Part shown: positions 21,842-28,748 of the stretch, in pieces | Position numbering within the stretch: the first letter of the stretch is position 1 | Layout: every line of letters begins with the position of its first letter | DNA from: an uncultured delta proteobacterium | Lineage (GTDB): Bacteria > Desulfobacterota > Desulfobulbia > Desulfobulbales > Desulfurivibrionaceae | Length of the DNA: 64,000 nt | Assembly: GCA_903869265.1 (NCBI GenBank) | Contig: CAIPYE010000014.1 | Coordinates: 62,001-126,000 of the forward strand | Direction of reading: 5' to 3' | The notes under the pieces: generated by a model | Database searches by the model: none | What the model was told of the DNA's origin: nothing | The model's input: only the letters and a program-made list of their open reading frames with translations | Program-made: the position numbers and the translations under genes

Positions 21842-23572
21842 TTAGAGAATTTTAGGCTGGAGCATGATGACCAGTTCGTTATTCTTGGTAGTCTTGGCAG
21901 AATGGGAGAAGAGTTTCCCAATTCCAGGGATGTCGCCCAAGAACGGAACTTTTGTGCTCGTATCGCTTTCGGCATTATCGATAAGCCCCCCGATAACCAA
22001 AACCTCTCCACTCTTGATCCGTACGGTGGTGTTCATCTCCCTAAGCTTTATTCTTGGCACGCCGACCGTACCCAGCCCAATAGGGATGTAATCTACAGTA
22101 TTATTATTGAGTTTTGAGGTTACTGGGGTGAGGGTGAGGATTATCTCGTCGTTATCCATGATCACTGCAATTACCGACATGCCCAAGCCTGACATGAGGG
22201 TTGCCGTTGTCGCGCTATAGGTAACAGCGCCTGTGGTGCCGTCGGTGCGTGATTCTATTTTGTCGATATACTTGATACTATCACCCGCAGATATCAGGGC
22301 TGGTTGACCGTTCATCACGCTCAACTTGGGATTGGCCAGCACCTTGGAAGGGCCTTGGGTGTCTAGAAAATCGAGAGCGAGAGAGAAGGGGTTGGCCAGA
22401 TCAAGGCTGATATTGCTTACCCCTCGGCCTCGCAGATCACGGTTGGGATCATAGATAATTCCGTTTGAGACGGAAGCAGCCCCTGCAGCCGCAGGGGTAC
22501 CGAATAGGGTGAAATTAATCACCTTGCCGGAGCCGTCCTTGCTGGACAGAAATTTAGTCCAGTCGATTCCTCGGGTAGAGGTATCCTCGAAGCCAACTTC
22601 AACAATTTTTGCCTCAATGGAGATCTGCCGGTACACTTCTGATTTGAGATTGTCAATATAGGTGGCAATTTTTTCAACAAGGGGTCTCGGGGCTGTTACG
22701 GTGATCAGGCCGATGGGTTTGTCGATGCTATAATATCCCTTCCCTGCCTGGACATTGCGCTTGGTTGGTGTTGCTGCTGCAGGGGGAGGGGCGGGGGGGG
22801 CGGCGGCAGCGCCAGCCTGGGGCGCAGGGCCAGCTGCTCCAGCTGCCCCAACTGTTGGCGGAGAAGTGGTTTCCTCCCAGATTTCAAGCATCTGGTCGAG
22901 ATTTTTCTTGATATTCTCCCATATATCAAATTGGTTATCAGCGCTGACGAGCTGGATGTTGCCTTTAACGCCGCTGGCAGCATTGGCCGCAGCGCTGCTT
23001 CCCAGGACATCGCCACCGACTCCGGTGTTATAGGTGGATTTTATAAATGGCATGGCCACATGGAATTTTCGGGTTTCCCGGTATTTGACCACGATGGTGT
23101 TGCCTTGGACTTCGTGGAAATAATCCTTCTGCCGGAGGATATTTTCCAGGGATTTGAAAAAGTCGTCCTCCGCCCGGATATCCACATCCACCTCGGCCAT
23201 CTGATCAACATCGCTTGCCCAGCTGATGTTCATGCCTTTCAGAGCGGCCAGCCGTTTCATGATGTCGCGCAGCGCCACCGGGCCGGTATTGGAGGAAATA
23301 TCGGCGCCAACCGGGATTGTAAGGCTTTCGGCATTCCCCGCCCCAATATTTTGGGCAGAAGTATCTCCCAGCATATAAGCCGGTTTCTGGAAGCGGACCG
23401 GCAACTGGCCAGCTTCCAGAGTCTTAGCCTGTTTTGCTGAGGCCGAAGCCTTTGTTGCAAGCGGATCTTGCGTGGCCGCAGTGTTGGCGGCAGGCGCGCA
23501 GGCAGAAATGAGCAGCAGACAGATCGCTGCACTGACAAAAAAGGTAACTAGGTTTCGAGTTTTCTTTTTCAT
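21842..23572 (-). CDS. pilQ: Lipoprotein secretin of the type IV pilus system (MshL/PilQ-like)
   Basis: 576 residues from ATG 23572. A lipoprotein signal with lipobox LISAC (C25) is followed by short secretin N domains (about 85-190), a Pro/Ala-rich linker near 262-285, and a complete secretin barrel domain with VEVGFEDTSTRGIDW, the VLANPKLSVMNGQPA block and the VPFLGDIPGIGKLFSH block near the C-terminus. Secretins form the outer-membrane gate for the pilus. The lipidated form with its own N domains resembles MshL more than canonical AMIN-containing PilQ; AMIN domains are instead on the upstream gene. The linker is encoded partly by a C8 tract (22793-22800), in frame here. Confidence 0.85.
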   Translation of the reverse strand: MKKKTRNLVTFFVSAAICLLLISACAPAANTAATQDPLATKASASAKQAKTLEAGQLPVRFQKPAYMLGDTSAQNIGAGNAESLTIPVGADISSNTGPVALRDIMKRLAALKGMNISWASDVDQMAEVDVDIRAEDDFFKSLENILRQKDYFHEVQGNTIVVKYRETRKFHVAMPFIKSTYNTGVGGDVLGSSAAANAASGVKGNIQLVSADNQFDIWENIKKNLDQMLEIWEETTSPPTVGAAGAAGPAPQAGAAAAPPAPPPAAATPTKRNVQAGKGYYSIDKPIGLITVTAPRPLVEKIATYIDNLKSEVYRQISIEAKIVEVGFEDTSTRGIDWTKFLSSKDGSGKVINFTLFGTPAAAGAASVSNGIIYDPNRDLRGRGVSNISLDLANPFSLALDFLDTQGPSKVLANPKLSVMNGQPALISAGDSIKYIDKIESRTDGTTGAVTYSATTATLMSGLGMSVIAVIMDNDEIILTLTPVTSKLNNNTVDYIPIGLGTVGVPRIKLREMNTTVRIKSGEVLVIGGLIDNAESDTSTKVPFLGDIPGIGKLFSHSAKTTKNNELVIMLQPKIL

Positions 23573-23751
23573 GGTGGCAGTCTTTATACTTTTTTTGAGG
23601 TGAAAGAAATTTGTTGAAATCGCAAAAGTCGCGCTTGCAACAGTGGTCACTCTGTAACTTTTTGAATTATGTTACGGACCTGTGTCATCGTTACCTTTTT
23701 CACGAGACTATCAAAATTCAGGTAAAAACCGAAAACGTCCCAACCTGTATG

Positions 23752-25858
23752 TTAATTTGCCGCGGTAATTCGTCCTTTAATGAACTGCTGCAAATCTTCC
23801 GGCACCGTGTACCCGGAAAGCAGAACCGCGTTGTATGCCGTTACGGCCTGGGCGGAAAGGCCAAGCTTGTCAAGAATGCGGGCCTTGGCCACCAAGGTGT
23901 CAAGGGTATCGCCGAACAGGGCTTCATGTCTGGCAAGCAGGGCAAGGGCGCCATTATAACTCTGGTACTCTTCGGCAAAGGAAGCGTAGCTGATCAGCGC
24001 TTCGCTTGGAGGTGTTTCCCCGCTGATGGCCAAGTCAAAATATGCTTTGGCCGCTTCGGTTTTCTTCATGTTGGCCGAGCCAATGGCAGCCTGCAGGGCA
24101 GCTCCTGCGTTGGCTGGCTCAAGGGTTAGTGTTGCCTTGGCATAGTGTACGGCCTTGGCGTTCAGCCCTAACTGGGTAAGGCAGAGCGAGGCGATGCGGC
24201 TTGCGAGCTGGGCATTTTCTGGCCAGTTGCTGAAGGCTGTTTCGTAGAGAGACAAGGCCTTTTCGAGCTGGCCGCTTTTTTCGGCGGCAGTGGCTTGCTG
24301 GATGAGGGTTTTCGCTTCAATAACCCCTTTGGGCGTTTCCAAGCGCCGCTTTACGGAGATGGCTTCAAGCTTTTCGCCACCCGTGACGGCAACTGCATCC
24401 GTGGCGCCTTTCGGCCAGTGGAACTGTTTGGATTTTGGCGAGATGACTATGGTGTTGAAACGTTCTTCTTTCTGGAGGTCCTTGAGGTTGAGAATGATAT
24501 CCAGGGCAAAATCCCAGGGGATATCGTTGAGCGCAAGAGTCAGGGTGCCGTTGACCCCCTCGTCCACAACAATATTCTGGCCGCTTATTTCGCCAAAAAG
24601 CCTGAACACGTTGTGGAGATCAATTTTAAAGAAATCCACGGTGATTTTTTGTTTTTCATATCCTGCGAAGGCAAAGGAGTCCGCCTTGCTGGTTTTCTCA
24701 GAAGCTTTCTGGGCAGAAGGCGCAGCTGCCTTGGCTGTCTTGGGCTCCTGGGCCAGCTTGGCTGCAACGGTTTTGGTTTTTGTCTTTGCGCTGGAGAACT
24801 TGGGAACGATCAGCTCCGGAGCGATTGTCTCGGGGGGAGCAGGGGGGGCGGCCATTTCCTCCGGAGGTGCTGCCGCCTCTACAGGCAGGGAAGGCGCAGG
24901 TTCTGGCTGCGAGGGAAGCATTGTTGCCGCCTGTTGCCGGGGCTCTGGTTTTTTGGCGGCATTTTGTTTGAGGAGACCTGCCACGATGGGCGCGGCCACG
25001 GAGGCCGACGGCTCCGCGATCTTGACCAGCAAGCCATCGGGTCTGTTTTCCACCTCATAGGTGAACAGCTCCTTGAGTCCGGAATCAAAAACGATGCGGA
25101 CCGTTGAATTACGCTGGGCCGCACGAATTTTTGCCAAGGCAGTTCCAACCGAGTGCTGTAACATCTTTCCAGGGAGCGCGACGTTGGCAATATCAATATA
25201 CATTCTGGCCGGGAGCCTGCCGCTTTTAGCGAGATGGGCTTTCTGGAATTTCGCGATCGGGCCGTTTGTTTGGATAAAGACGCGGGTCTCGGCCGGGTTG
25301 GTGGTGTCAATTTCAATGTCCTGAAGCAGTGAGGCCGGATGAGCAGCCGGGCTGGCAATGGTTGCGGAATGTTGTTCCGCTTCGGGTTCGGTTGCCGCCT
25401 CTACGAGTTGGGGGGGGGGTGGGCATTGTCTTTGCAAAACAGACGACAATATTGTTCCCCTTTCTTTCGATGGTATAGGCCGGGTCGTCGGTGAGGTAGA
25501 TCTCCAGCCGGGCGATGGCCGGTTCCTGATCGGTCAAGGTGATATTTTTAATGTCCTGTACCGGCCCTTGCGGCAGATTTACCGGAATCGCCGTGGAGTC
25601 AAGGAGTTTGGCATCGGCAATGTCCAGTACGATCCGTAGGGGATCGAAGAGCTCGTACATCGTGTAGGTGGGTGGCGTGCGCCCTTGGATAACCAGTTGC
25701 AAGCCATCGGCTGTCTGGTCAAGGGTAATGCCTGATATTGTGTAGGTCGTTTTTGTCTGGGGGGCGGTTTTTTGGGCAAAAGTTGTCCCGGTCAAAAGAA
25801 AACAAAATATCATCAGCCCGGTAGAGATACATTTCAGGCGGGTAATAAGGGGTGTCAT
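23752..25858 (-). pseudogene. AMIN-AMIN-STN-TPR pilus-assembly protein, frame broken at a C10 tract
   Basis: The first part (25858 down to 25313) reads a signal peptide (MTPLITRLKCISTGLMIFCF) and one AMIN domain up to AKTMPTPPP, then leaves frame after the C10 run (25410-25419) and stops after 181 residues. The second part (from about 25430 down to 23752) resumes in the next frame with QLVEAATEPEAEQ, a second AMIN domain, a Pro/Ala linker, a secretin/TonB short N-terminal domain (KITVDFFKIDLHNVF...) and TPR repeats to the end. A tract of 9 or 12 C would join them into one protein of roughly 700 residues. AMIN domains bind peptidoglycan, so the product should anchor the secretin. It is either phase-variable, frameshifted by slippage, or a sequencing error. 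Confidence 0.75.
25410..25419. repeat. C10 homopolymer (G10 on + strand) at the frame break
   Basis: Ten identical bases within a coding linker of the pilus gene. Slipped-strand mispairing at such tracts changes the reading frame; the two flanking frames are both well-conserved domain sequence. Confidence 0.85.
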
Positions 25859-26385
25859 TATTTTTCTCCCTCTTTGCTTAAGATCATCTCAATTTTGCGG
25901 GATGTCCGTTCACCGGTCACACTTTTAAATGATTGCTCGATGATTACCTTGTCTTGGGCTATTTGTATCACTTCTCCCTTTTCCCCAATTTTAGTGCCCT
26001 TGCGGAGCACATAGCCAACGCCGGAGGAGTCCTGCACCATGGCCAGCAATCCGCGCTTGCCTGAAACGATGGCCACCAGGGTCAACTGGGCTGGCTCAAA
26101 TTTTTGTGTTCCAGTGAGTTCTGCCTTGGCCTTGGCCTCGGCTTTCATAATTTCCTGGGTGAGAAACGGGAAAAAAGGATCTGGTCTTTCGCGATTATAC
26201 ACAAAAGGCGGCGTTTTTCCGCTTGCAAGGGTTGTTTCCAAAGCCTGGGCCGGGTTGATGGTGGCAACGTCTGGCGTGACAGCCTCGGGCTGGGCAGATG
26301 CCGCATCCCATGCGCCCATGCAGCAGATGCTTGTAACAAGGGCAATTGCGAGAAAAATATTCTTTGAGGACACGCTGTTCATCAT
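25858..26385 (-). CDS. pilP: Type IV pilus assembly lipoprotein-like protein PilP
   Basis: 175 residues from ATG 26385. An N-terminal signal-like segment (NIFLAIALVTSICCMGAW) is followed by a Pro/Ala stretch and the PilP-type beta domain: RPDPFFPF, LTLVAIVSGKRGLLAMVQDS, GVGYVLRKGTKIGEKGEVIQI and VIIEQ. PilP links the inner-membrane PilM-N-O platform to the secretin. The signal has Cys-Cys but no clean lipobox. The stop overlaps the next gene start by one base (TAATG), and the start lies inside pilO's 3' side spacing of about 37 bases. Confidence 0.88.
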   Translation of the reverse strand: MMNSVSSKNIFLAIALVTSICCMGAWDAASAQPEAVTPDVATINPAQALETTLASGKTPPFVYNRERPDPFFPFLTQEIMKAEAKAKAELTGTQKFEPAQLTLVAIVSGKRGLLAMVQDSSGVGYVLRKGTKIGEKGEVIQIAQDKVIIEQSFKSVTGERTSRKIEMILSKEGEK

Positions 26386-26422
26386 GATGTGTGGTTCTCG
26401 TAATTTCGTGGTGCTCACCTGG

Positions 26423-27073
26423 TTACTTCTTACCTTTTGCATTTTTCTTCGCATTGGCTTCAATTTCAGCAGGATCGAGAAAGCGATAGGTGACAAGCTG
26501 AAATGTTGAATTCAGGATCATTTCCCCACCCATCTGCTTTGGGGAATCCATCTTGATGTTGCTCACGGAGACAATCCGGGGAAGCTTGCTTATCTTGTCA
26601 AGAAAGATGCCCACATTATGGTATGGCCCCTGTACTCCGATATCAACTGGAATTTCCGCATAAAATTGCTGCGGTTTTTCGGCAAGCGGTTTGAAGGAAA
26701 GAACATCCAGACCCGAAGCGGTGGCTTGCCCTGAAATGGTGGACAGGAGCGAGGGGATTTCTTTTTCATCGGGCAGCAACATGGATGCCTCGGCAAACTG
26801 CCGTTGCACTTCCGCCATTTCCGACTTGTGCTTGTCAAGGTCGCGGGCGATTTTTTCTACTTTCCGAAGTTCTTCTTCGATCCCGGACTTTTTTGTTTCA
26901 AGACCCTTTATTTCTTCATTTTTCGGGGAATAGGCAAGGAAAAAAAAGGCCACGCACGGCAGGATGCAGGCTGCGGCGGCGATCAGCATCTTTTGCTTCA
27001 TGTCAAGCAGGCTTACCTTGCTGTCGAGAAATTTCTCGATGCTGGCCTGGATTTGTTTTACGTCAAGCGCCAT
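26423..27073 (-). CDS. pilO: Type IV pilus inner-membrane platform protein PilO
   Basis: 216 residues with a GGGAGAAG ribosome site. One transmembrane helix at about 29-48 (LIAAAACILPCVAFFFLAYS), a coiled coil at about 50-95 (EEELRKVEKIARDLDKHKSE), and a ferredoxin-like C-terminal domain (IPVDIGVQGPYHNVGIFLDK) characterise PilO. It dimerises with PilN and aligns the motor with the secretin. The Lys-rich C-terminus (AKKNAKGKK) is unusual but minor. Confidence 0.93.
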   Translation of the reverse strand: MALDVKQIQASIEKFLDSKVSLLDMKQKMLIAAAACILPCVAFFFLAYSPKNEEIKGLETKKSGIEEELRKVEKIARDLDKHKSEMAEVQRQFAEASMLLPDEKEIPSLLSTISGQATASGLDVLSFKPLAEKPQQFYAEIPVDIGVQGPYHNVGIFLDKISKLPRIVSVSNIKMDSPKQMGGEMILNSTFQLVTYRFLDPAEIEANAKKNAKGKK

Positions 27074-27093: not shown

Positions 27094-27645
27094 TTAACTG
27101 TTCGGTGTGACAACATTTGTCGTGAGAGAAAAAGATTTCAGCTTCTGCTTGGCAACGTCCGTTTGCGCAGAACTGGTCAATTCCGTTTTTTCAAAATACT
27201 CCGAGGCTTCCAGCTGCTGCATGTACTGGGCAATGGTTTCGTTATCCAGGGCAATGCCTTGTAGTTGTAGGCGTCCGGTGGACTGTTGCAGGGAGTTGAG
27301 CCACATGCGACTTGTCGGGGTGCGTGACGCCACTTCATCGAGAACGCGCACCGTAACTTGGGCGCCGGCTTGGAGTTTTTTTATGGAGTCCAGTTTTTGC
27401 TCCACCAGCTGCTTCTCTTTTTTCAGGGTATCAATCTGCTTCAGGATGGGCTGGAATGACTGCTTTTTTTGTTCAAGCGCAACAAGCTTCTCCTGCAGGT
27501 TGTTGATTTTTCCTGCCAAGGCAAACCAGCCGACAACAAGAACGAGCAACACCAGAACAAGGGCGGCGGAAAACCCCAGAAGCTCGGTCTTCAGGCGCGC
27601 TCTTTTTTTTAGCTGCCTGATCGGCAGGAGGTTGATGCGGATCAT
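27094..27645 (-). CDS. pilN: Type IV pilus inner-membrane protein PilN
   Basis: 183 residues. MIRINLLPIRQLKKRARLK is the conserved PilN cytoplasmic peptide (INLLP) that binds PilM. A transmembrane helix follows at about 23-44, then a coiled coil and a small periplasmic domain (SLQQSTGRLQLQGIALDNET). A GGAGG site lies upstream. It follows pilM by 5 bases. Confidence 0.95.
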   Translation of the reverse strand: MIRINLLPIRQLKKRARLKTELLGFSAALVLVLLVLVVGWFALAGKINNLQEKLVALEQKKQSFQPILKQIDTLKKEKQLVEQKLDSIKKLQAGAQVTVRVLDEVASRTPTSRMWLNSLQQSTGRLQLQGIALDNETIAQYMQQLEASEYFEKTELTSSAQTDVAKQKLKSFSLTTNVVTPNS

Positions 27646-27650
27646 GGCGG

Positions 27651-28748
27651 CTATACCTCCACCGGTCTTGTTGCCAGACCTGCGGCAAGGGTCATTTCCG
27701 GAGCAATGTTTTTCAGATAGGAGGGATCAATGGTTTTGCTATCCACCGATGCTTGCTTGAAAGGGTTGAAAATCTCCACAGGGATCTCTGTCTCTTTTTC
27801 GAAAAACTCGGTAAGACCCTGTATCTTTGCGCCGCCGCCGCTCAGGACAATTTTTGAAATTGTTTCGTCTGGATGATTGGAATAATAAAAATCAATGGCG
27901 CGCTTTACCTCTGTTACCCACTGGTTACAGGTATTCGCAAAAAGGCCTTCAAGCTCCGCCCGTTTTTCTTGAGAGACGATTTCTCCAGTTTTCAAGGCTT
28001 CAGCCTCTTCGAAACTGATCCCAAAAAGATTTTCTATCTGCTCGGTCAATTGCCGACTGCCAAGAACAACGTCCCGGGCCAGAATTGAAGAGCCATGGGA
28101 GATGATATTGATGTTCATTTTTGAGGCGCCAATATCCACCAGGGCGACATTGTCCGCCAGACTAAAATTTGCCTCAAAGGCGTTTTCCAGGGCAAAGGCA
28201 TCCACGTCAACAACAACCGGTTGGAGGCCAGCCGTCCGCAACATGTTGAGATATCCGTCCACAACATCCCGTTTGGCCGCAACCAGCATGACATCCGTGC
28301 GGTCTTCGCTTGCGGTGTTGGTTTTCAAATCCTGAAAATCCAGATAGACGTCTTCAATATCAAAAGGGATATACTGTTCTGCCTCGGATTCGATATGTTT
28401 TTCAAGCTCCTCTTCGGTCATCACGGCCAGATTTATTTTTTTGACGATGACAGAGTATCCTGAAATGGAGATGGCGACCTTTTTATTCTTGATTTTCAGG
28501 TTGCTGACCAGGGCTGTGATGACTTTGCCCACGGCTGCCGGATCCTGCAAGGCACCGTCTTCAAGAGAATCGGGCGGGAGCAGAGCGCTTCCCAGGGCTA
28601 CGAGTTGATAGCCGTTGCCTGTTTCCGCAAATTCACAGATCTTCACGGCATGGGAGCCAATATCAAGGCCGATGGAGAGTGTTTGTCTTTTGAAAAAAGG
28701 GATATGCAAGGATGGCAATTGTAATTTTTTAAAACCGGACTTGCCCAT
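27651..28748 (-). CDS. pilM: Type IV pilus actin-like ATPase PilM
   Basis: 365 residues. SIGLDIGSHAVKICEFAETG is the phosphate-1 motif of the FtsA/actin fold; LVDIGASKMNINIISHGSS is phosphate 2 and KIVLSGGGAKIQGLTEFFEK the adenosine motif. PilM binds the INLLP peptide of PilN in the cytoplasm. It is the first gene of the operon, with a 115-base leader and a likely promoter at 28870-28899. No Shine-Dalgarno of note precedes the ATG. Confidence 0.96.
   Translation of the reverse strand: MGKSGFKKLQLPSLHIPFFKRQTLSIGLDIGSHAVKICEFAETGNGYQLVALGSALLPPDSLEDGALQDPAAVGKVITALVSNLKIKNKKVAISISGYSVIVKKINLAVMTEEELEKHIESEAEQYIPFDIEDVYLDFQDLKTNTASEDRTDVMLVAAKRDVVDGYLNMLRTAGLQPVVVDVDAFALENAFEANFSLADNVALVDIGASKMNINIISHGSSILARDVVLGSRQLTEQIENLFGISFEEAEALKTGEIVSQEKRAELEGLFANTCNQWVTEVKRAIDFYYSNHPDETISKIVLSGGGAKIQGLTEFFEKETEIPVEIFNPFKQASVDSKTIDPSYLKNIAPEMTLAAGLATRPVEV

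Follow-up and report, generated by a model that had tools for sequence, protein, structure and literature searches.

A ten-base C tract interrupts a conserved pilus-assembly gene in an uncultured deltaproteobacterium

The window, as we call the whole 64-kb stretch of DNA analysed, carries a type IV pilus-assembly operon on its minus strand, in the order pilM (27651..28748), pilN (27094..27645), pilO (26423..27073), a pilP-like gene (25858..26496), a gene split between two open reading frames, and a secretin gene (21842..23650). Pfam models identify pilM, pilN, and pilO. The pilP-like gene adjoins the split gene upstream, its stop overlapping the start of the 5' frame, and is assigned by this position together with a Pfam PilP match of 23.8 bits, just below the cut-off of 25.6. 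The secretin, immediately downstream of the split gene, scores 138 bits against the Pfam Secretin model and 257.6 bits against NCBIfam model TIGR02519 (MshL), over the equivalog cut-off of 250.2. With PilP just under its cut-off, the arrangement is that of a pilMNOP(Q) operon, four pil genes in order upstream and a secretin downstream, and an earlier note that placed the gene in pilus assembly is borne out by these Pfam and NCBIfam assignments. The same genome encodes two large and two PilT-sized ATPases of the T2SSE family, all with intact frames. Outside the window, contig C14:156098-156549 (L135 9099-9550) holds what is left of a type II secretion ATPase, spread over three frames, fused with an apparent secretin C-terminus and lying beside a GspG-like ORF; this is an apparent deletion-scarred T2SS operon.

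The 5' frame of the split gene (25313..25858, minus strand, 181 amino acids) encodes a signal peptide and a first AMIN domain, scoring 33.5 bits against a Pfam cut-off of 20.5. The 3' frame (23752..25449, minus strand, 565 amino acids) encodes a second AMIN domain (26.9 bits), an STN/N0 domain (32.0 bits), and weakly scoring TPR repeats, and lacks a separate signal peptide. The two ORFs overlap at 25313-25449, and within the overlap lies a G10 run on the plus strand at 25410-25419, which reads as C10 on the coding strand. This is the longest C/G run in the window, and it exceeds the length of about 8 or more that we use as the criterion for a long homopolymer inside a reading frame. Homology of the 5' ORF to relatives stops at the tract, its last 30 or so codons past that point being out of frame and non-homologous, while the relative-homologous part of the 3' ORF begins at the tract. 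The frames are offset by one base, such that joining them requires a +1 shift on a series of CCC codons followed by C. The earlier note had described two open frames, of this domain content, meeting at a ten-base C run that nine or twelve C would convert to a single frame; its coordinates, domain assignments (the TPR match being weak), and arithmetic all agree with the sequence, the ORF list, and Pfam.

A homopolymer of this length is not in itself remarkable. At least one C/G run of 10 per 64 kb appeared in 18% of simulated sequences from order-3 or order-5 Markov models, and in 60% from an order-1 model; taken alone, the run is too common to carry weight. What goes beyond chance is that homologous halves of one conserved gene join precisely at the C10 tract.

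By its predicted domains, the gene encodes a PilQ-N-terminal-type periplasmic protein for the base of type IV pili, with a signal peptide, two AMIN domains, STN/N0, and TPR repeats. The STN part aligns to positions 2-77 of NCBIfam model TIGR02515, and the AMIN domains are expected to bind peptidoglycan. Pfam finds the secretin domain (PF00263) in neither frame but in the next gene; the split gene is thus distinct from the MshL-type secretin, with which its protein presumably acts. No paralogue of the split gene occurs elsewhere in its own genome. The parts of PilQ are naturally separate in this genus, as an AMIN-AMIN-STN-TPR protein and an MshL-type secretin (window 21842-25858).

A search of 58 related genomes found a match to the split gene in 56. 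We designated as readable those genomes of the same genus with sequence legible across the tract position, 13 in number, and in all 13 the protein is encoded by one uninterrupted frame of 660-705 amino acids, running from signal peptide to TPR. Both window frames align to this single frame, and thus the region is coding on both sides of the tract, as the earlier note had it, and the flanking frames belong to one conserved protein. That relatives might instead encode the halves as separate genes, the observation the note named as refuting its proposal, is contradicted by every readable congener. Since all of these show one frame, the two frames in the window descend from a single ancestral gene, a conclusion that the sequence comparison supports well. 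The relatives that a second collection names are without exception metagenome-assembled genomes, labelled Deltaproteobacteria, Proteobacteria, Desulfobulbaceae, and once Desulfurivibrio. In two congeners, G009 and G012, the protein is shorter and the second AMIN domain is missing, and in a third, G016, the gene is cut by a contig end. An apparent second break, in G012, was taken as a gap, as that locus includes 176 N, at which the alignment fails.

At the position of the tract, the congeners encode a variable, short proline linker, typically K-T-M-P-L-P-P-Q-L, in which stretches of C are usually broken by a Leu or Met codon. C runs at this spot measure 4-7 in the 13 readable congeners, none exceeding 7 and none out of frame; the long tract is not retained in related species. 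Among these genomes, the one analysed here is alone in having the long tract, and alone in having the break.

To the mechanical ORF list the locus appears as two genes, but a reading of it as two genuine genes, or as one decaying pseudogene, is largely refuted, and we assign it almost no probability. The single frame in congeners leads us to reject separate genes, and the 3' part has no signal peptide; decay is rejected on the pattern of substitution. Nei-Gojobori estimates were made for each half separately on the window's own branch. The 3' half gave dN/dS of 0.15-0.19, and the 5' half about 0.17 with two outgroups and 0.35 with a third, for which dS is only 0.07. Neighbouring pil genes range from 0.06 to 0.20. 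Purifying selection still acts on both halves in this lineage, and the break must therefore be recent, reversible, or absent from living cells.

The last of these would hold if the tract length were an error of sequencing or assembly, the gene of the living cells being whole and its tract in frame. The earlier note, too, listed sequencing error as an alternative. This explanation has a substantial but minority share of the probability in our assessment. The break sits exactly in the window's longest C/G run, the likeliest place for a length error; every readable relative is intact; both halves are under purifying selection; and homopolymer indels arise even in Illumina data (PMC8808543). Against it, a comparison with three congeners, spanning about 54 kb of the window, yields the tract break as the sole true frameshift, other flagged candidates having proved to be adjacent genes or gene boundaries, or antisense frames, and no widespread assembly indel errors were found. 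Pattern searches of the whole genome, with overlapping matches merged, count 26 C/G runs of 9 or more, and in at least eight other genes a Pfam domain reads in frame across a C/G run of 9-10, the run being 10 long in one of them; such runs inside intact genes lie, for example, on contigs C5, C10, C13, and C15. This sample leans toward intact genes, because broken genes show no crossing domain. The intact genes nevertheless disfavour wholesale sequencing error, and the assembly is broadly trustworthy at C/G runs of 9-10, while the single C10 tract stays uncleared. Elsewhere in the genus, C/G runs of 35 (G016, L102 1501-1535) and 24 (G009, L100 1501-1524, adjoining an N gap) are probably assembly artefacts, and a caution for homopolymer counts in these genomes.

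If the ten-base length is real, as we infer, some full-length protein might still be made by recoding, through ribosomal +1 slippage on the run of proline CCC codons or through transcriptional slippage. The geometry suits the former, in that the needed shift is +1 and the break falls on CCC codons in succession, with a C after them. The tRNA-Pro(UGG) of Escherichia coli is naturally frameshift-prone on slippery CCC-C (PMC4519876), which makes a small full-length leak plausible. A stimulatory structure, however, is absent, the region folding no better than shuffled sequences (z -0.65), and a tract that is not conserved is not an old programmed signal. Lacking both a slippery site conserved in congeners and a stable structure, the locus does not resemble a programmed frameshift site, and recoding as the explanation is very improbable.

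The earlier note's principal proposal was phase variation, in which slipped-strand mispairing in the C tract would toggle the pilus-assembly protein, as poly-G tracts do for Neisseria pili. Its premise of one gene split at the tract stands; its switch does not find the same support, no readable congener having more than 7 C or being out of frame. A tract kept among relatives is a usual mark of a selected contingency locus, and this one is not kept. Several features fit such a switch: the length and C/G composition of the run, its placement in a gene for a surface appendage, some 150 codons in and within a linker that tolerates change, and the retention of both halves. On the other side, the window shows no excess of C runs of 8, with 4 observed against 10.6 in shuffles. 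Congener runs of 11 or more vary in their surroundings, several of them adjoining N gaps or contig ends; they are uninformative about poly-C contingency loci across the genus and show no genus-wide habit. No report of phase variation in Desulfobulbus relatives was found among the literature matches listed. Selected phase variation of the pilus gene is, on balance, unlikely. An evolved switch at this locus is possible, without comparative support there, and the tract could yet be a young, species-specific one.

A better candidate region for phase variation than the window tract is a pseudaminic-acid/surface-sugar cluster outside the window, on the contig labelled C10 (56182-76365; L086, L137, L087). 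PseI and PseG score above NCBIfam cut-offs, and PseF-like and PseC-like proteins, methyltransferases, and DegT are also present. This 20-kb segment (contig C10:56-76 kb) holds five of the 26 genomic C/G runs of 9 or more, an association that counts in favour of phase variation in this organism; for a fixed 20 kb the probability is 1e-6, or about 1.5e-4 once roughly corrected for the choice of location. One of the runs, a G12 at contig C10:65284-65295, splits an ORF that has no homologues in 194 genomes of the order, while at least one other, in an SDR gene, is no more than the coding sequence of a glycine-rich nucleotide-binding motif. With long G tracts so unusually frequent in this cluster, and one of them splitting an ORF, the genome may have a real switching system. 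That this bacterium, an environmental one of Desulfobulbaceae type, exploits slippage in C/G tracts as a contingency mechanism for its surface, switching both the pilus assembly gene and the pseudaminic-acid glycan cluster, is a speculative proposition that we think probably wrong.

The account we favour, tentatively and at somewhat below an even chance, is a recent slippage event in a mutable tract private to this lineage, rather than a selected switch. Substitutions in the poorly conserved proline linker would have fused short C runs into one slippery tract, and a slip of one base, recent on the evolutionary scale, would then have put the sequenced cells out of frame. The tract is, in our best reading, an incidental mutable site, grown by chance. 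As written, the sequence would yield a secreted single-AMIN fragment, and the STN/TPR part would not be exported; without the latter, this pilus system would be expected to be inactive or impaired. Further slippage could in principle reverse the lesion. If the slip is fixed, or if the break is an error, the proper annotation of the locus is a single interrupted pilus-assembly gene, not two proteins. If the C10 tract is both real and polymorphic, homopolymer phase variation of pili would be extended beyond host-associated bacteria to an environmental, uncultured lineage.

Three known systems bear comparison. The pilC gene of Neisseria is a poly-G phase-variable gene, and flagellin-glycosylation genes of Campylobacter are poly-G phase-variable as well (PMC3068675). 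The locus described here resembles such genes in that a C/G run of about 10 lies in a gene for a surface organelle and the frame is broken there, but differs in that its tract is not conserved, the corresponding runs in the 13 congeners being 4-7 C. The second likeness is to the N-terminal region of PilQ (TIGR02515), where two AMIN domains are followed by STN/N0 and the gene lies in a pilMNOP operon. The split gene, however, has TPR repeats in the place of the secretin domain, its whole-protein score against TIGR02515 is 63 where the cut-off is 284, and the secretin is a separate gene of MshL type. That secretin provides the third likeness, to MshL of MSHA-type pili, passing the TIGR02519 cut-off, but in the window it stands behind pilMNOP and the split AMIN gene.
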